Positions 2,847 to 54,347 of a DNA stretch of 64,000 nucleotides are shown one piece after another. Source of the stretch: Bacteriovoracaceae bacterium (GTDB lineage: Bacteria; Bdellovibrionota; Bacteriovoracia; Bacteriovoracales; Bacteriovoracaceae); NCBI GenBank assembly GCA_013141065.1, contig JABFRR010000008.1, positions 191,464 through 255,463 on the forward strand, written 5' to 3'. The translations under genes and the position numbers were made by a program. Positions within the stretch are counted from its first letter, which is position 1; the number at the start of each line of letters is the position of its first letter. The notes beneath the pieces are model-generated. The model was not told where the DNA came from. It searched no databases and saw only the letters and a list, made by a program, of their open reading frames with translations.

Positions 2847-4412
2847 TTAAAGTTGAATGTTCCCGTGCTTACGTTTTGGCTTTTCTTGCTTTTTATTTTT
2901 TAGAGCAACCAAATATTCATAAACTCGTTTTCTCGTTTCTTCTGGAAGTATAATTGCGTCCATAAAACCTAATTCTGCCGCTCGGTAAGGATTGGCGAAC
3001 TTCTCTTCATAGTCTGCAATAAGTTGTGCTTTTTTATCATCAAAAGCTTTTCCAGTAAGACCCTCTAGCTCATGTCTGCTAATAATATTTACTGCACCCT
3101 CAGCACCCATAACTGCAATTTCTGCAGTTGGATAAGCCAAGTTAACATCTGTCTTAATATGTTTTGAGGCCATAACTAAGTACGCACCTCCGTAAGACTT
3201 ACGAGTAATTATTGAAATAAGTGGAACGGTTGCTTCTGAATAAGCGTATAGAAGTTTTGATCCGTGTTTAATAATTCCACCAAATTCTTGATTCGTTCCA
3301 GGTAAAAAACCAGGTACGTCAACTAGAGTAAGTATTGGAATATCAAAAGCATCACAAAAACGTACAAAGCGCGCAGCTTTTTCGCTAGAAGCAATATCTA
3401 AAACTCCTGCCAAAACGGCAGGCTGATTCGCCACAATACCGATTTTTATTCCACCAACAGAAGCAAAACCAACGATGATATTTTTTGCATAATCTTTATG
3501 GACTTCTAAAAATTGTGCATCATCAACAACATCAAAAATGATTTCTTTCATGTCGTATGGTTTTTTAGGATTTGCTGGAACAGTTTCTTTAATTTTTACG
3601 TTATCACGATAGACAGTATCAGAAGTATATTTGGGAGTTGCTTTCGTAAAATTTGCATGAGGGATGTACGAAAGAAGTTCACGAACTCTCTCGAAACATT
3701 CATCTTCAGTTGCAACTTTAAATTGCGCGACACCTGATTTTTCCGAGTGAGCAGTAGCTCCACCCAATTGATCTTTTGTCACTTCTTCGTGGGTAACCGT
3801 TTTAATAACATCAGGTCCAGTTACAAACATATATGAGGTTTTATCAACCATGAAAATAAAATCGGTTAGAGCTGGAGAATAAACTGCTCCACCAGCACAC
3901 GGTCCCATGATTAAAGAAATTTGAGGAATGACTCCAGAGCATTTTACATTTCTATAAAAAATTTCTCCGTATCCTGCTAGGCCTTCAACGCCTTCTTGAA
4001 TTCTAGCACCTCCAGAATCATTCATTCCAATTATTGGAATTCTGTTTTCCAGGGCAAAGTCCATTATTTTACATATTTTTTTTGCATGAGCAGCACCTAA
4101 TGATCCTCCAAAACAAGTAAAGTCTTGAGAATAAAGTGCAATTTTTTGTCCATTAATTGTAGCTACACCAGTAACAACACCATCTCCTAAAAAGGATTCT
4201 CCTGCTCCAGAAGCGCCTTGCTTACTAACAACAAAACGATCAAATTCTAAAAATGAACCCGGATCCACCAATCGCTCAATTCTTTCTCGAGCTGTATATT
4301 TACCTTGTTCGTGTTGCTTCTTTTTTCTAACTTCACCACCGCCGACTTCAGATTCTTTTCTGAGTTTAAGCAATAGCTCGCGCTTACCATCAAGGCTCTG
4401 GGTATTTAACAT
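2847..4412 (-). CDS. Acyl-CoA carboxylase carboxyltransferase (PccB-type) subunit
   Basis: This 521-residue crotonase-fold carboxyltransferase moves the carboxyl group from biotin to an acyl-CoA. It contains both halves of the transferase in one chain, as in propionyl-CoA carboxylase beta. Visible family signatures include the KYTARERIE stretch near residue 42, GGSLGAAHAKK, the GPCAGGAVYSPAL oxyanion-loop region and the C-terminal DVPGFLPGTNQE and SYGGAYLVM motifs. It is first in the operon with the biotin carboxylase and carrier genes. Its ribosome binding site AGGAGG lies eight bases before ATG, inside a terminator-like hairpin (4413-4464), so expression is probably attenuated or conditionally translated. 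Propionyl-CoA is the likeliest substrate, by inference. Confidence 0.92.
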   Translation of the reverse strand: MLNTQSLDGKRELLLKLRKESEVGGGEVRKKKQHEQGKYTARERIERLVDPGSFLEFDRFVVSKQGASGAGESFLGDGVVTGVATINGQKIALYSQDFTCFGGSLGAAHAKKICKIMDFALENRIPIIGMNDSGGARIQEGVEGLAGYGEIFYRNVKCSGVIPQISLIMGPCAGGAVYSPALTDFIFMVDKTSYMFVTGPDVIKTVTHEEVTKDQLGGATAHSEKSGVAQFKVATEDECFERVRELLSYIPHANFTKATPKYTSDTVYRDNVKIKETVPANPKKPYDMKEIIFDVVDDAQFLEVHKDYAKNIIVGFASVGGIKIGIVANQPAVLAGVLDIASSEKAARFVRFCDAFDIPILTLVDVPGFLPGTNQEFGGIIKHGSKLLYAYSEATVPLISIITRKSYGGAYLVMASKHIKTDVNLAYPTAEIAVMGAEGAVNIISRHELEGLTGKAFDDKKAQLIADYEEKFANPYRAAELGFMDAIILPEETRKRVYEYLVALKNKKQEKPKRKHGNIQL

Positions 4413-4464
4413 AAAAAAAACCTCCTAAAGAAGGAGGCATTTTATACCTTGATTCTTTAGGAGG
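4413..4464 (-). promoter_or_regulatory. Terminator-like hairpins that include the PccB-type gene SD
   Basis: Read on the minus strand, the element 5-prime CCTCCTAAAGAA (4464-4453 complement) can pair perfectly over 12 bp with TTCTTTAGGAGG, and a shorter local hairpin CCTCCT-TCTTT-AGGAGG uses the same 3-prime arm. The shared 3-prime arm is the Shine-Dalgarno, is followed by eight Us, and the start codon comes immediately after. The element can therefore terminate transcription from the upstream activator gene and also mask the ribosome binding site. Confidence 0.65.
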
Positions 4465-4494
4465 CTACTTATAGTGCGTCAAAAATGTGAATAT

Positions 4495-6105
4495 TTATGC
4501 AGCTTTGACTCGTTTATCAAGTCCATATTTATCAACTTTCATTATCAAGCTCGCTCTGGAAACATCTAGCTCTTTGGCTAAGCGTGATTTATTAAAATTA
4601 CAACGCTTCAAGCCTTCGCGAATCATCATTATTTCTAATTGCTCCAGTGCTTCTCTCAAAGTGCCTTCAGTGTCGACCCCTTTAAATGCTGGCTCTGAAG
4701 AGGCTCCCCACTCTGAAATTCGAGGACTCAAATTCGATGGATCGATAACTTTTTCATCCCCTGCCAAAACCACCAAACGCTCAACTTCATTTTCAAGTTC
4801 ACGTACATTTCCTGGCCATGGATAATCAAGCAATTTCTCCATACATTTTTTTGCAAAAGACTTTAAGGGTTTTCCTGCTTCATCACATCTTTTCTTCAAG
4901 AAAAAATCCATCAATACTGGAATATCGTCATGTCGCTCACGAAGAGGTGGAAGACCTACGTTTATTACGTTAATACGGTAATAAAGATCTTCTCTAAATT
5001 CACCCTTTGCCATCATTTCTTTTAAGTTTTTATTGGTTGCAGCTACTATTCTCACGTCTACTTTTTTAGGTGATGTTGCCCCGACTGGTAAGTAAGTTCC
5101 TTCCTGTAAAACCCTCAAAAGCTTCACTTGCATTGAAAGTGTCGTATCACCAATTTCATCGAGAAAAAGTGTTCCACCATTTGCCGTTTCAAAAAGACCT
5201 TTTTTATCTTTTACAGCACCAGTAAATGATCCTTTCATATGCCCAAACAATTCTGAATCAAGCAAGTTGTCGTTAAAAGCAGAACAGTTCACCGCTAAAA
5301 ACATTTTTTCCTTTCTAGGTGAATAAAAATGAATCGCCTTGGCTACCAGCTCTTTTCCAGTTCCATTTTCCCCTTGAATCAATACACTTGATTCCGAATT
5401 CGAAATTTTTTCTAGTAATGAGTATATTTGTTGCATCTTTTTCGATTTACCAATCATTGCATGGTAACGATATTTCTCACCGACTTCTGAACTTAGAGCA
5501 TGAATTTGGTCTTCTCGTTTCGTAATTTCATCATGAAAACTCACCATCTCTTCTGCGACCAATCCTGTGAGTTCTTTTACGTATTCCAACTCACGTGGCC
5601 ACATCTTTTTAATTTTTTCACAAGCTACCGCTGCATCAGATTCAGTCGTCCCACACTCGATCATTTGCTTTTTAAGTGCTTCTATATCTGAACTTGTAGC
5701 TGTATCAGCAACAAATGGATAAACAAAAACAGCTCCTACAAACTCACCTTCAACTTTGACGGGAAAAGCTACACCCTTTACATGTTTAAAGTATGACTCA
5801 TAAATAACGATATCGTCTTTTCCTGATCCCATTTTATCCATTACCTTTTCAATATCATCAGCAAGAAAATCATGCCCGTAAGCTGACTGCATCTGCACTT
5901 TCATAAAATGACTTTTAAAAGCAAAGCTCTTACTTGAATGATCAGACCAAAGCTTTCCATGAGCATCTGCATAAAACATTTCCACATCAAACCATTTTCC
6001 TAGAATTCCTTCTAATTTTGTAATGACGTGAAGCTTTCCCATATCTTGCCAATTAATCATACAACTCTCCCAAGAGTTCTGATGTTCGAGATCTTCAAAC
6101 ATCAT
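4495..6105 (-). CDS. Sigma-54-dependent transcriptional activator
   Basis: This bacterial enhancer-binding protein hydrolyses ATP to open sigma-54 promoters. Residues about 15-200 form a sensory region of GAF/PocR-like appearance, residues 215-440 an AAA+ domain and the last 40 residues a Fis-type helix-turn-helix. Walker A is GENGTGK (245-251), Walker B ends LFLDEIGD (313-320) and the sigma-54 contact loop reads GSFTGA (292-297), a tolerated variant of GAFTGA. No receiver domain is present, so it probably senses a ligand rather than a kinase signal. A second possible start, MINWQDMGK, lies 16 residues in. It is upstream of the acyl-CoA carboxylase genes on the same strand, but no -24/-12 element is visible before them, so regulation of that operon is only a possibility. 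Confidence 0.92.
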   Translation of the reverse strand: MMFEDLEHQNSWESCMINWQDMGKLHVITKLEGILGKWFDVEMFYADAHGKLWSDHSSKSFAFKSHFMKVQMQSAYGHDFLADDIEKVMDKMGSGKDDIVIYESYFKHVKGVAFPVKVEGEFVGAVFVYPFVADTATSSDIEALKKQMIECGTTESDAAVACEKIKKMWPRELEYVKELTGLVAEEMVSFHDEITKREDQIHALSSEVGEKYRYHAMIGKSKKMQQIYSLLEKISNSESSVLIQGENGTGKELVAKAIHFYSPRKEKMFLAVNCSAFNDNLLDSELFGHMKGSFTGAVKDKKGLFETANGGTLFLDEIGDTTLSMQVKLLRVLQEGTYLPVGATSPKKVDVRIVAATNKNLKEMMAKGEFREDLYYRINVINVGLPPLRERHDDIPVLMDFFLKKRCDEAGKPLKSFAKKCMEKLLDYPWPGNVRELENEVERLVVLAGDEKVIDPSNLSPRISEWGASSEPAFKGVDTEGTLREALEQLEIMMIREGLKRCNFNKSRLAKELDVSRASLIMKVDKYGLDKRVKAA

Positions 6106-48811: not shown

Positions 48812-49108
48812 ATGATATCGGACAAACAAGATGCAATCCAACTTCTCAACACTGCTGTAATAAAAAGCAAAGAAAAAAGAATTAATGCTAGCTATGAAGA
48901 ACGACTAGCCAAAATATGCAATTCACCAGTGATGAATGCACTTCTTATTGCGGTTGACTCATTAGCCGAAGAAGAAAAAATGTCAAAAGATCAAGCAGCA
49001 ATATCTATAGTTGAAACCGTAAGGGAACTCGACTCTATTTGGAACGATTATGTTTTAATGGAAGGTATTGGCAAACTAAAAGATCTTTTAAAAAACAACA
49101 TTCATTAA
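48812..49108 (+). CDS. Small helical protein of unknown function
   Basis: This 98-residue protein is predicted to be almost all helical, soluble and acidic/basic mixed, with heptad-like stretches (LAKICNSPVMNALLIAVDSLAEE and a lysine-rich C-terminus KLKDLLKN). No signal peptide or membrane segment. I recognise no family. Its stop overlaps by four bases the stop of the convergent TonB-like gene (TTAA at 49105-49108). The weak codon evidence is balanced by a full-length frame and its AT-rich, possibly promoter-bearing upstream region. Confidence 0.6.
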   Translation: MISDKQDAIQLLNTAVIKSKEKRINASYEERLAKICNSPVMNALLIAVDSLAEEEKMSKDQAAISIVETVRELDSIWNDYVLMEGIGKLKDLLKNNIH

Positions 49109-50121
49109 GACTTAACTACAAATCCCCATTGAATCGTGGCCCGACCACCAACTAAAAGACCTTTCGGAGGGTTTGGAAAAGGGCCAGCTTTATTAAAGGA
49201 CTCGATCGCAGCTTGGTCGAGTTCTCTTACTCCGCTAGTACCTTCAATTTGCATATCAACAATTTGCCCGCGTCCATCCAACGTCACCGTTACAGAGGTT
49301 ATCAGATTATCACTTGCAGGCATTCTTCTTCCAGACCTGTACAAATTTTTTGCTTTGTCTCGAATTGAACTTCCCCAGTGCTGTTCTAATTGCTGACGAA
49401 TGCGATGATAAAAACCGTAATACTTAAACTCTGTCGTATTTAAATTAGTCATGTCTCCCAAAGGAACTTCTTCAACAAAGTCATTATTTTGGGCCAAGCC
49501 CAACTTACCACTTTTTCCATTTTTTAAACCAAATGCACCAGACTTTTGTTCTTTTGCAATTTTTTGATTTAGCCTAGCAAACTCGTCACTCATTTCTTTT
49601 TCAACTTTATCAACATCACTTGCTTTAAATCCACCAAGATCACTGAGAGATAATGGCTTATTATTTGTTGTTTTTGCTTTATTATTTTTTAGTGGAGTGC
49701 TAGCTACTTTTACATTTTGCATTTCAGAGGCAACATTACCAGTCCCATTTTTTTCACCTAAACCTGCTTCTTTAAATGCACCATTCGTAGCGGCCATCGT
49801 TTGACGCTCAAATGTTTGGTTCTTCTCGCTTAAAAATCTTGAATTGTTTTTTTGAGAATTATTCTTACTAGACTCGGTAGCAACTATTTGCTTATTCATT
49901 GCAGCTTTTATAGATTTTAGCTTTTCAGGGCTGATAAATTTAACTTCATCCAAACGAATAGAATTTTTCTTGAAGTTATTCATTTCACTGTCTGCTAATT
50001 TCATTTCAGATTTCGTTGAATTTTGAATTTTATAAAAAAACAGAGCAAAGCCTACATGAACAAACAAAGAGAAAAAAAGAGCATATGATATTTTTTGTCG
50101 ATTCTGCTTATAAAGTTTCAT
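49105..50121 (-). CDS. TonB-family protein with C-terminal TonB domain
   Basis: A candidate energy transducer or envelope linker. An N-terminal membrane segment (about residues 12-32, YALFFSLFVHVGFALFFY) is followed by a long, low-complexity, Lys/Asn/Ser-rich periplasmic linker of around 200 residues. A C-terminal domain (about 250-338) follows, with NLITSVTVTLDGRGQIVDMQI, LDQAAIESFNKAGPFPNPPKG and RATIQWGFVV, which matches TonB C-terminal domains. The linker lacks the proline-rich repeats of classical TonB. No exbB or exbD is adjacent. A role like that of AgmX or other TonB-like motility/envelope proteins is possible. Confidence 0.8.
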   Translation of the reverse strand: MKLYKQNRQKISYALFFSLFVHVGFALFFYKIQNSTKSEMKLADSEMNNFKKNSIRLDEVKFISPEKLKSIKAAMNKQIVATESSKNNSQKNNSRFLSEKNQTFERQTMAATNGAFKEAGLGEKNGTGNVASEMQNVKVASTPLKNNKAKTTNNKPLSLSDLGGFKASDVDKVEKEMSDEFARLNQKIAKEQKSGAFGLKNGKSGKLGLAQNNDFVEEVPLGDMTNLNTTEFKYYGFYHRIRQQLEQHWGSSIRDKAKNLYRSGRRMPASDNLITSVTVTLDGRGQIVDMQIEGTSGVRELDQAAIESFNKAGPFPNPPKGLLVGGRATIQWGFVVKS

Positions 50122-50264: not shown

Positions 50265-52937
50265 TTACTGATTCTCAAAATATTCATCATCTCCAAGTGG
50301 CCGAGCTTTTACAGGCACTCCGGCTTCATCTGTTTTTGGCAATTCTACAACCTCTGCAAAGGATTCTAATATTGATCCAAGTGTATTTGGAGCGACTTTA
50401 CGACCAGTTGTCTTATCAATCCAATCTTGAGTTATTCCTGCAGGTATATCGAACGTGTCATCACCATATTTTCTAAATGTAGCTCTCATAAATTCTCGCC
50501 AGACAACCAATGGTGTACGGCCTCCAGTTTCTCCATATCCGAGTGTTTTATTATCATCAAATCCGGCCCATACAGCAGTCACAACATTTGGTGAATACCC
50601 GACAAACCATGCATCTATATAATCGTTTGTAGTCCCCGTCTTGCCAGCTATGTTTGAGCTTAACTCTCTTGCTGCTCCTCCGGTTCCACTGGTGATAACC
50701 CCTTTGAGCATTGAGGTCATTAAATAAGCAAGTCTGGTATCATAAACTTGTTTTCCAGTTAAATTTTGAACATAAGAGTTATTTGAATTATTTTTCAAAT
50801 CACCTGTCTTATCATCTGAAACAGTACTTGGAATTTTCATATCTTTTTCAACTTCATTTATTACGTATTTTTTACCATCGCGATCCACCACTGAAGTGAT
50901 AGACCTAGGTGTAACAAACTTTCCACCATTGGCAAAAATGGCATATGTCGTGACCATATCTCTTGGTGTCACTCCGAATGTTCCAAGAGCAATACTCAAG
51001 TTGTTTTCAAGTTTTGCATTAAAGCCAATACGATCAACAAATTTTAATATATTTCCCACTCCAACCTTATCTGCAATTTTAATTGTAGGGATATTTCTAG
51101 ACTGCTCTAGTGAAACTCTCATTGTTACAGGACCTTTATAATCTCCATCATAATTTTTAGGTTTCCAGCTTGAGGCAGAGTCAAATCCAGGCATAGCCTC
51201 AGGTGTATCTAAAATAATCGTTGCTGGATTATAGCCATTTTCCAAAGCAGCTGCAAAAAGGATGGGTTTAAATGCTGAACCTGGCTGACGTTTTGCCTGA
51301 GCGACTCTGTTGAATTTAGAATTATTGTAATTGCTTCCTCCCACATAACTTATGACATCTCCAGTTTTTGCATCAATTGAAAAAATTGCACCTTGGACTT
51401 CAGCAACTTGATCTAATAAACATAAAATATATTTTTGTGAACGAGTGAGTGCACCCAATTTTGATTTTCCAACTAAAGCCGTGCTTTCTTTAGATAAATA
51501 AGGGGCAAGTAAAACTGGTTTTTTAGAAACTTGAACATGAATAAGATCTCCAACTCGCAAGATAGTTGAAGGTGTGCTCACTTCTTGGTAATAAGCCGTA
51601 TTTTCACTTATACTGCGTTTATGGGCCCATTTAAAATTATCAAGTGGAATGACTCCTGGTGACCCTGCAAGTGAAACAAAAATAAGTTTTGATGCATCAT
51701 CGATTCTTGTGACTACGGCTTCGTATTGGGTATTTTCTTTTAAAACGTCTAAAATATTATCATTTGGACTTAAGCCTGGGAAAAAATTCTCATCACCGGA
51801 CGAAACATATATTCGTGATTGTTCTTCTTTTATTACGTCGTATGCTTTTTCATCAAAATAAAATTCATAAACTTTTTCATTTTTTTCATTAATTGTGAAA
51901 TAGGATGAAAAATCTTTAAATATTTTCACTCGAGTTTGTTTTTCAAATTTTGATAATTCCTCAGGCCCTATATGAGCAAATGGTCCTTTATATCCTTGGC
52001 GTTTATCTATTTCTTTTATTCCTCGCTTAATTTGCTCTTCAGCAACTTGCTGAAGTTCCCAATCTAAAGTTGTTTTTATCTTGTAGCCATCTATCAAAAA
52101 CGATTTCTCACCAACAACATCCACGACTTTTTGTCTTACCCACTCTGTAAAATATCCCGCTTTCAACTCATCTACACGTAAATGATAAATTGTTTTTTCT
52201 TTCTTAGCGGCTTCAAATTCTGCATCTGTAATTTTTTTAAGCTTATGCATTCTATCTAATACATAACCCTGTCGCATTTTTGCCGCATGTGGATTCACAT
52301 ATGGTGAATATTTTCCAGGTGCTACCAGCAAACCTGCAATCATCGCTGATTCTGCTACGGTTATTTCTTTGAGTTCTTTATTAAAATATCCACGAGCAGC
52401 AGCTTTTATTCCGTAATAGCCTCCACCTAAGTAAACTTGATTTAAATAGAGAAAAAGAATTTCATTTTTTGTTAGTTTTTCTTCAATTCTTTGGGCGAGG
52501 ATAAAATCTTTTAGCTTCCTAGTTATTGATCGCTCAGAACTTAATAATAATGACTTTGCAACTTGTTGAGTAATTGTACTCCCACCTTGAACCACCTTAC
52601 CTGCTCTAAAATTTGCTAACATGGCCCTAGTGAGTCCCCAATAGTCGACACCTTTGTGTTCAAAAAACTTATCATCTTCTGCTGATAAAAAGGCATCTAT
52701 AACTCTAATCGGAACTTGTTTCATTTCAACGATCTCTCGTTTTTCAAGTCCAAGCTCGGCTAAAATAACACCATCTTTTGAAATTATCTGTGATGCTAAA
52801 TTTGGTTTATAATCTTGAAGTTTGTCAATTTTTGGTAAATCTAGATTAAAATAAGTAAAAGCCAGTGCTCCAGTTATCCCCGCAAGCAAACCTACTCCAA
52901 CAAGTGCCAAAAATATTTTTATAATAAGACTCTTCAT
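50265..52937 (-). CDS. Bifunctional penicillin-binding protein 1A
   Basis: It polymerises and crosslinks peptidoglycan at the inner membrane. An N-terminal membrane anchor (8-29) precedes a GT51 glycosyltransferase domain (about 60-240), with catalytic Glu87 in SAEDDKFFEH and the GGSTITQQ motif. A roughly 250-residue intermediate region with an OB-like insertion leads to the transpeptidase domain, with the Ser-x-x-Lys motif GSAFKP (Ser near 554), SRN and the KTG motif AGKTGTTND near 765. Length 890 is typical of class A PBP1A. It follows a pseudo-patatin lipoprotein and xseB. Confidence 0.95.
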   Translation of the reverse strand: MKSLIIKIFLALVGVGLLAGITGALAFTYFNLDLPKIDKLQDYKPNLASQIISKDGVILAELGLEKREIVEMKQVPIRVIDAFLSAEDDKFFEHKGVDYWGLTRAMLANFRAGKVVQGGSTITQQVAKSLLLSSERSITRKLKDFILAQRIEEKLTKNEILFLYLNQVYLGGGYYGIKAAARGYFNKELKEITVAESAMIAGLLVAPGKYSPYVNPHAAKMRQGYVLDRMHKLKKITDAEFEAAKKEKTIYHLRVDELKAGYFTEWVRQKVVDVVGEKSFLIDGYKIKTTLDWELQQVAEEQIKRGIKEIDKRQGYKGPFAHIGPEELSKFEKQTRVKIFKDFSSYFTINEKNEKVYEFYFDEKAYDVIKEEQSRIYVSSGDENFFPGLSPNDNILDVLKENTQYEAVVTRIDDASKLIFVSLAGSPGVIPLDNFKWAHKRSISENTAYYQEVSTPSTILRVGDLIHVQVSKKPVLLAPYLSKESTALVGKSKLGALTRSQKYILCLLDQVAEVQGAIFSIDAKTGDVISYVGGSNYNNSKFNRVAQAKRQPGSAFKPILFAAALENGYNPATIILDTPEAMPGFDSASSWKPKNYDGDYKGPVTMRVSLEQSRNIPTIKIADKVGVGNILKFVDRIGFNAKLENNLSIALGTFGVTPRDMVTTYAIFANGGKFVTPRSITSVVDRDGKKYVINEVEKDMKIPSTVSDDKTGDLKNNSNNSYVQNLTGKQVYDTRLAYLMTSMLKGVITSGTGGAARELSSNIAGKTGTTNDYIDAWFVGYSPNVVTAVWAGFDDNKTLGYGETGGRTPLVVWREFMRATFRKYGDDTFDIPAGITQDWIDKTTGRKVAPNTLGSILESFAEVVELPKTDEAGVPVKARPLGDDEYFENQ

Positions 52938-52949
52938 AGTATTTCCTAA

Positions 52950-53969
52950 TTACTCAAGCCCGTTTGCACTTGGTGATGTTTTAATTTGAATAGTTTTTTT
53001 CAAAGAATTAATTTGTGATTCAATAACTTGCTGAGAACTCATCATGTACGATGCAACATTCGCCGTTGAATCTAAGCTCATACTTGATAGAGGCAAGCTT
53101 ATAAAAAAATCAAAACCCTTTTTTTCCTTCGCTATTTTTCCAGAAATTTTTCCATAGATTCCAATCAGATATTCATTTGAGTCTTCAAGTTCAAACTTTG
53201 TACCAAGACTATCAACTCCTATTGAAAAATCTGAGCCTACTTTTTTAATGAGTCTTGGATTAAAAACTTCACTTTCCATTGCCGTTGAATAAACATTTTT
53301 TCGTGCATTTTGATTTGTGTTACTTAATTTAAAATTCAGCAAAAGTAGATTTCGTATATTTCCTTTATCGAAATAATATGTCTTTTTATTTTTAAAATTA
53401 AATAGAGTTATGAAAAATTTTCTTGAGGAATCTTCGATGTTTTTATTTTTAAACTTCTCGAGTAAAAAAGTATCTATTTCTTCAATCCATTCTGATGAAT
53501 AAGGACGATAATTTCTTTTTTCTTTAAAATATTTATAAAAATTCCATTCAATTATTTCAGGAGTCATGCCTGTGGCATACATTGCTGCTACAACCGCACC
53601 AAACTCTGTTCCGGTTACTATTTTTGGAGCCAAATTATGCTTTTCTAGTACTTTTAAGACTGAAACATAATTTAGTGTTCTATAAAGTCCTGGTCCAAAG
53701 CTTAAACTAATTCTAAGTCTTTTGGCTTGATCCTCACCAGAGGAATTGATTTCTGTTTCATTTTGCGTATATACATCACCACCATTTTCTCCAATTCTTA
53801 TTGTATCAGCAGGTGGAGTTATAACTGTATTTTGTGAGTTTTTACCAGGATTAGAACCGTATTCTCCTAGATCAATCTGGGCCAATTGATCTTGGTTAGA
53901 TTGAAGTGGTTTAATTGCCGAACAAGAACTAAGAATTATCGCGAATAAAACTATAAATATATTAGTCAT
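52950..53969 (-). CDS. Lipoprotein with degenerate patatin-like domain
   Basis: An N-terminal signal with lipobox ILSSC (Cys16) predicts a lipoprotein, then a low-complexity linker to about residue 85. The region ISLSFGPGLYRTLNYVSVLK and VTGTEFGAVVAAMYATGM follows the patatin phospholipase pattern (GGGxxG then GxSxG). However, the oxyanion loop is FGPG (91-94) and the nucleophile elbow is GTEFG (120-124), with Glu where the catalytic Ser should be. No DGG/DGA dyad is clear. It is therefore probably a non-catalytic pseudoenzyme. It begins one base after the xseB stop and precedes PBP1A by 12 bases, so all three may share an mRNA. Resemblance is from memory of family motifs. Confidence 0.7.
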   Translation of the reverse strand: MTNIFIVLFAIILSSCSAIKPLQSNQDQLAQIDLGEYGSNPGKNSQNTVITPPADTIRIGENGGDVYTQNETEINSSGEDQAKRLRISLSFGPGLYRTLNYVSVLKVLEKHNLAPKIVTGTEFGAVVAAMYATGMTPEIIEWNFYKYFKEKRNYRPYSSEWIEEIDTFLLEKFKNKNIEDSSRKFFITLFNFKNKKTYYFDKGNIRNLLLLNFKLSNTNQNARKNVYSTAMESEVFNPRLIKKVGSDFSIGVDSLGTKFELEDSNEYLIGIYGKISGKIAKEKKGFDFFISLPLSSMSLDSTANVASYMMSSQQVIESQINSLKKTIQIKTSPSANGLE

Positions 53970-54176
53970 CTAAAGATCTTCTTCTTTTAAACTATCGTTA
54001 AGTAGGGCTATCTTTTTTTCAGCGATAGACAATTGGCTCTTACATTCTTTATAAAGCTTTGTCCCAATTTCAAATTGCTCGAGACTTTGTTCAAGAATTA
54101 ACTCACCTGATTCTAACTTCGCTACTATAGTTTCAAGCTCTTTAAGTGATTCTTCAAAAGATTTTTTCTTAGTCAT
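53970..54176 (-). CDS. xseB: Exodeoxyribonuclease VII small subunit
   Basis: The small subunit of the ssDNA exonuclease ExoVII. The 68-residue form starting MTKKKSFEESLKELETIVAKLESGEL is the canonical XseB pattern. I choose ATG at 54176, which has GGGG about six bases upstream, over an in-frame ATG at 54224 that adds 16 unlike residues. xseA is not in this window. Confidence 0.92.
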   Translation of the reverse strand: MTKKKSFEESLKELETIVAKLESGELILEQSLEQFEIGTKLYKECKSQLSIAEKKIALLNDSLKEEDL

Positions 54177-54347
54177 TTTATTCCCCAATGTGTCCGAGCA
54201 TTTTAAACCTGTATTATGTGTCAAAAAGTTATCATTAGCATGACCCTTTTTTCCTTAATTGGCTCAATTCATTATTGAGTAAAGATACATTATCAATGAC
54301 TTACTTAAAAGACTTTTGCGAAGGACTTTTTTACCCATGTAGGAAAA

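Follow-up and report, generated by a model that had tools for sequence, protein, structure and literature searches.

We describe a family of patatin-fold lipoproteins, here called pseudo-patatins, in which the Ser-Asp dyad is dismantled throughout and one member of which is encoded at positions 52950..53969 (-) of the window, the 64,000-nucleotide stretch of DNA analysed here. The window gene codes for a lipoprotein-type protein composed of a signal peptide with a lipobox, a tether of about 65 residues and a patatin-fold domain, and the evidence strongly supports a dead domain. Loss of the nucleophile is a character of the family and not a quirk of the window protein, and the dyad loss goes beyond chance because the same trait is found across the phylum. 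As an explanation of the whole we propose, tentatively and at somewhat under an even chance, a non-catalytic patatin-fold envelope lipoprotein that may serve as an adaptor of PBP1A.

Results

The gene and its predicted product

The open reading frame starts with ATG and encodes 339 amino acids. Immediately upstream lies xseB (53970..54224 (-); PF02609 Exonuc_VII_S, 5.7e-18) and, 12 nt downstream, the gene of a PBP1A-family class A PBP (50265..52937 (-); TIGR02074 PBP_1a_fam, 4.7e-184) with Transgly, PCB_OB and Transpeptidase matches, followed by a TonB/TolA-like protein (49105..50121 (-); PF13103 TonB_2, 2.3e-10). The frame, the lipobox and the two neighbouring matches thus bear out the original prediction of a lipoprotein gene between xseB and PBP1A. 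The lipobox L-S-S-C16 (53922..53933 (-)) contains the Cys expected to be lipid-modified, whose column is conserved at 1.00 (family-weighted, n=123 rows). Its +2 residue is Ser, and +2 Asp was absent from all of the 82 of 95 family rows whose lipobox was found by pattern; the +2 sorting rule for lipoproteins derives from enterobacteria.

An AlphaFold model (mean pLDDT 81) is disordered over residues 17-81 (53727..53921 (-); pLDDT <50), the tether joining the lipid anchor to the domain, and confident over residues 82-331 (52977..53726 (-); pLDDT mostly >90). The best structural match in the PDB is PlpD of Pseudomonas aeruginosa (Z 25.8, rmsd 3.0, 235 aligned residues, 17% identity), and other solved neighbours are CapE (Z 22.9), CapV (20.8) and plant patatin (20.5), which supports the patatin-like fold that had been proposed from the sequence. 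A distant orthologue with Glu at the nucleophile position, from a genome which we take to be B. bacteriovorus HD100, was modelled with the same fold (pLDDT 88), closest again to PlpD (Z 26.7). The window protein matches Pfam Patatin PF01734 over residues 101-213 (E 1.3e-8, 35.8 bits against a cut-off of 27.7) and has the fold that defines this family. A genome-wide search gave one further patatin match in the same genome, L001, with an intact GSSAG, and no others.

Besides being the closest in fold, PlpD (PDB 5fqu/5fya) is the only sequence match of the family profile in the PDB (3e-12). It is described as an Omp85-anchored phospholipase with a Ser-Asp dyad (PMC11116518), whereas the pseudo-patatin has no barrel, a lipid anchor and no dyad. 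RssA-type small patatins (NF007623) are matched weakly over residues 83-299 (6e-7, 28.9 bits), but far under the curated 272-bit cut-off, and the pseudo-patatin lacks the Ser and the Asp of the dyad. The CapV and CapE effectors, which share the fold, act in defence systems as nucleotide-bound Ser-type lipases; unlike them, the pseudo-patatin carries a secretion signal, has lost the dyad and is without partner genes of that kind in the neighbourhoods examined.

A dismantled active site

In the window protein SFGPGLYR occupies the place of the LGGGxxKG of Ser-type patatins. Compared with GGGx[KR]G, the altered oxyanion loop G92-P93-G94 (53688..53696 (-), by alignment) has Pro for the middle Gly and keeps two of three glycines, so that the claimed replacement of the glycine loop by FGPG holds only in part; GPG was found in 59 of 95 family rows. 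At the elbow the nucleophile Ser of GxSxG is replaced in GTEFG, as had been proposed. This motif begins at residue 120, hence the Glu (codon GAG read 53606-53604, at 53604..53606 (-); alignment) is residue 122 and not 121 as first numbered, and the model places it at the nucleophile elbow, in the turn that links strand 117-120 to helix 123-132.

We scored this position in 123 rows from 19 families within the phylum, a sample picked by listed coordinates. Glu occurs in 81 rows, Gly in 38, Asp in 2, Asn in 1 and Ser in 1, the sole Ser row being L147, a diverged member of 243 residues. Three loci were dropped: L069, L270 (truncated) and L272 (a Ser-type patatin). The first is a short contig in G010, probably foreign to that assembly, whose protein nearly duplicates the f6-type one of L114. 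Of the 19 families 14 have Glu, and outside f1, the family of the window, it accounts for 79 of the 92 rows, whereas in f1 Gly dominates (27/31) and the Glu rows are those of the window and L051. Outside f1, then, most orthologues have Glu, whereas within f1 most do not, and Glu is no peculiarity of the window protein. Glu and Gly interchange at least 7 times across the tree. In alignment A2, from which Gly-type rows are excluded, the invariance of Glu119 is partly a matter of choice, and where alignment is difficult (f1 remnants, some of the f8 rows) single columns may be misread.

The catalytic Asp of DGG/DGA is lost as well. Among 43 rows aligned with a Glu-type orthologue its column holds Ala (28), Ser (11), Gly (2), Thr (1) and a gap (1), with Asp in none; the Thr is that of the window protein. 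A second alignment, of 32 basal rows together with six Ser-type patatins, gave for the basal rows Ser (16), Ala (4), Thr (3), gaps (3) and one each of Leu, Asn, Lys, Cys, Glu and Asp, the Asp row being poorly aligned. A search of the orthologues for an intact Ser-Asp dyad, the finding that would have overturned the original prediction, returned none. The window protein is very probably not a Ser-type lipase. We also considered a role-swapped Glu-Ser dyad, suggested by Ser in half of the basal rows, but rejected it given the prevalence of Ala in the wider set; it is kept only as part of an alternative discussed below.

The family signature E141-W142 (53544..53549 (-)) is better preserved than the elbow residue. 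The Trp of W142 is kept in 122 rows out of 123, with Phe in the remaining one (L278). With families weighted equally, the lipid Cys, G120, G124, G92, G94 and E141 are within the top sixteen of 339 columns, whereas Glu122 ranks 29th. Constraint therefore tracks the pocket side more than the catalytic letters, which favours, without proving, a binding role.

Distribution and gene order across the phylum

Relatives of the window protein were found by sequence search in 36 of 57 genomes, the weak matches including Ser-type patatins; likewise 279 of 368 hits in a broad search take in Ser-type patatins and are not a family count. Orthologues were therefore anchored by gene order, with ispA, tlyA and pepP identified by eye from sequence, without a family search. 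In f1 the order is xseB-(pseudo-patatin)-PBP1A-tonB, and in f8, f24, f25, f26, f27 and f29 it is usually tlyA-(pseudo-patatin)-PBP1A-tonB. In f6, f11, f16, f17 and f19 we typically read ispA or tlyA-(pseudo-patatin)-pepP, 3' of xseA-xseB, and in f15 xseB-(pseudo-patatin)-pepP. The orthologue of Bdellovibrio bacteriovorus lies downstream of xseB-ispA-tlyA. For strain HD100, bd0197/bd0198 are described as xseA/xseB, and bd0199 as expressed in growth phase only. None of the papers listed in literature searches dealt with a catalytically dead patatin lipoprotein of Bdellovibrio-like bacteria.

Of 33 Ser-type patatin rows from the same phylum, GxSxG was recognised in 32, either by a pattern match or on visual reading, the exception being L217; a further locus, L211, was missed by the script. 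The tree holds 86 of the 123 rows, without ten short, diverged or duplicate rows and one whole further row set, and in it a branch with support 98 sets the 33 Ser-type patatins apart. Since they all fall on one side, a single origin of the dead branch in the phylum would be the simplest reading of these sequences.

Association with PBP1A

PBP1A is the next downstream gene, on the same strand, in 57 loci of seven families (f1, f8, f24-f27, f29); one f8 locus stops at a contig edge, and every other scored locus of those families has PBP1A next. The gap between the two genes is negative, i.e. they overlap, in 35 of the 57 loci, is exactly -4 nt in 23 and does not exceed 20 nt in 49. The PBP1A neighbour is thus kept well outside this genome, yet an exclusive partnership is not supported. 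In six families (f6, f11, f15, f16, f17, f19) pepP and not PBP1A is downstream in 53 of 56 loci, and in f4 and f10 a single locus each has tonB as the immediate neighbour of the pseudo-patatin. From families that lack the pair 17 genomes were sampled, and in 6 of them (G217, G220, G223, G235, G246, G278) PBP1A is located within 10 kb of the gene, which fits an ancestral neighbourhood dispersed later.

Among 23 PBP1A loci from f1 genomes chosen for a weak or no match, xseB directly adjoins PBP1A in 15, with no pseudo-patatin between; the rest comprise three with a shrunken copy, one remnant (L151, by eye) and four at a contig edge. Domain lengths and layout of PBP1A are alike with and without the pseudo-patatin (28 vs 15 rows), and the few group-specific columns seen may follow one clade. 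In the 22 of 25 given f1 rows that have all eight genes compared, covariation between pseudo-patatin and PBP1A beyond background was not found (partial r 0.07, p 0.25; control flgG 0.35); the transglycosylase part alone gave a partial r of 0.28 (p 0.003, uncorrected for seven tests). Of the eight, the pseudo-patatin evolves most rapidly, with a mean distance of 1.93 against 0.66 in PBP1A.

Two other genes of the neighbourhood were noted. The TonB/TolA-like gene accompanies PBP1A across families, and convergent with it 48812-49108 (+) encodes a conserved short protein of 98 residues, present at the same place in f1 and in many f8 loci.

Comparison with the Lpo lipoproteins

LpoA and LpoB are described as outer-membrane lipoproteins required by PBP1A and PBP1B of E. 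coli (PMC9593243). LpoA, LpoB, LpoP and the pseudo-patatin are alike in being lipoproteins with a reaching tether, and the pseudo-patatin gene adjoins that of a class A PBP here; they differ in that no sequence match was seen between them and that true LpoA- and LpoB-family genes exist in the phylum. The LpoB family is represented in 51 of 57 relatives, the genome of the window included. There the match is located outside the window (G000:C8:12101-12520; 6.0e-19), and an LpoA-family match is absent from that genome.

LppC/LpoA matches exceeded the cut-off in 11 of 57 genomes, and from these 11 the gene pair was not known, a pattern that resembled mutual exclusion; in f1 no genome out of 35 had such a match. 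When 64 chosen genomes were searched, LppC was over the cut-off in 26 of 27 genomes of f8, f24-f27 and f29 (G333 was below), nearly all of which hold the pseudo-patatin/PBP1A pair. We therefore rejected the pseudo-patatin as an Lpo substitute: genes of both the LpoA and LpoB families coexist with it. The earlier suggestion of a PBP1A regulator analogous in role to Lpo would gain from such a substitution; that idea fails on this coexistence and on the covariation with PBP1A, which was not found.

Discussion

The non-catalytic envelope lipoprotein that we propose would be anchored in the outer membrane, its tether reaching into the periplasm. It would act without catalysis by binding either a partner or a lipid on the side of the old active site, where the residues best kept in sequence (the glycine loop, the G-x-E/G-x-G elbow and the E-W helix) are found. 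Its likeliest partner may be the class A PBP of the next gene, overlapping in many lineages; this step, drawn from gene order, is plausible although on the doubtful side. The protein would tune or position wall synthesis beside, and not in place of, activators of the LpoA/LpoB type. A bolder version seems to us unlikely. In it, this phylum-wide dead-lipase class of single origin would be a dedicated envelope-spanning cofactor of PBP1A, whose old pocket, with the Glu elbow and the near-invariant Trp, senses outer-membrane lipid and signals to the wall synthase and to the TonB-like neighbour.

Gene order near PBP1A could also be inertia. Only a little less probable than our proposal is an envelope lipoprotein that binds a lipid or other ligand and is not particularly linked to PBP1A, its neighbours being a reshuffled old string xseB-tlyA-(pseudo-patatin)-PBP1A-tonB. 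It would agree with a downstream neighbour that varies by lineage (PBP1A, pepP or tonB), with the housekeeping nature of the upstream tlyA, ispA and xseB, with the 15 genomes in which the pseudo-patatin is missing beside an intact PBP1A and with the negative covariation result. However, adjacency to PBP1A has been held throughout the seven families even though the pseudo-patatin evolves fastest of the eight genes.

It is improbable that the protein is a decaying relic in the course of being lost from f1. The same 15 genomes, the shrinkage to 233-259 residues in five f1 loci (L073, L130, L147, L150, L185) and the faint remnant at L151 speak for decay; against it, the f1 rows scored retain the lipid Cys and W142, and 11 of 13 genomes of the same genus carry the gene at 49-58% identity with no internal stop (the twelfth at 39%, one without a match). 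The L151 sequence (3648-4496 (-), G016, between xseB and PBP1A) is a 282-residue open reading frame that begins with a lipobox-like segment and contains a V-E-W stretch; a patatin motif could not be read in it, and it is likely a remnant of the pseudo-patatin family.

An active enzyme of altered chemistry, with the elbow Glu as nucleophile or base and possibly Ser at the former Asp place, in the manner of haloalkane dehalogenases, where Asp has the corresponding role, draws on the prevalence of Glu, on Ser in 16 of 32 basal rows and on a glycine loop partly retained, but is most improbable considering the Gly in 38 of 123 rows, the repeated Glu/Gly changes on the tree and the Ala that 28 of 43 rows have in place of the Asp.

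The pseudo-patatins thus represent an old, unnamed branch of the patatin fold that has lost its dyad and has yet been retained in Bdellovibrio-like genomes, and in many lineages its gene stands in operon-like contact with that of a wall synthase. If the link to PBP1A is true, the family would constitute another kind of lipoprotein cofactor for class A PBPs, and would offer a route from the lipid state of the outer membrane to wall growth in bacteria that remodel both their own walls and those of their prey.
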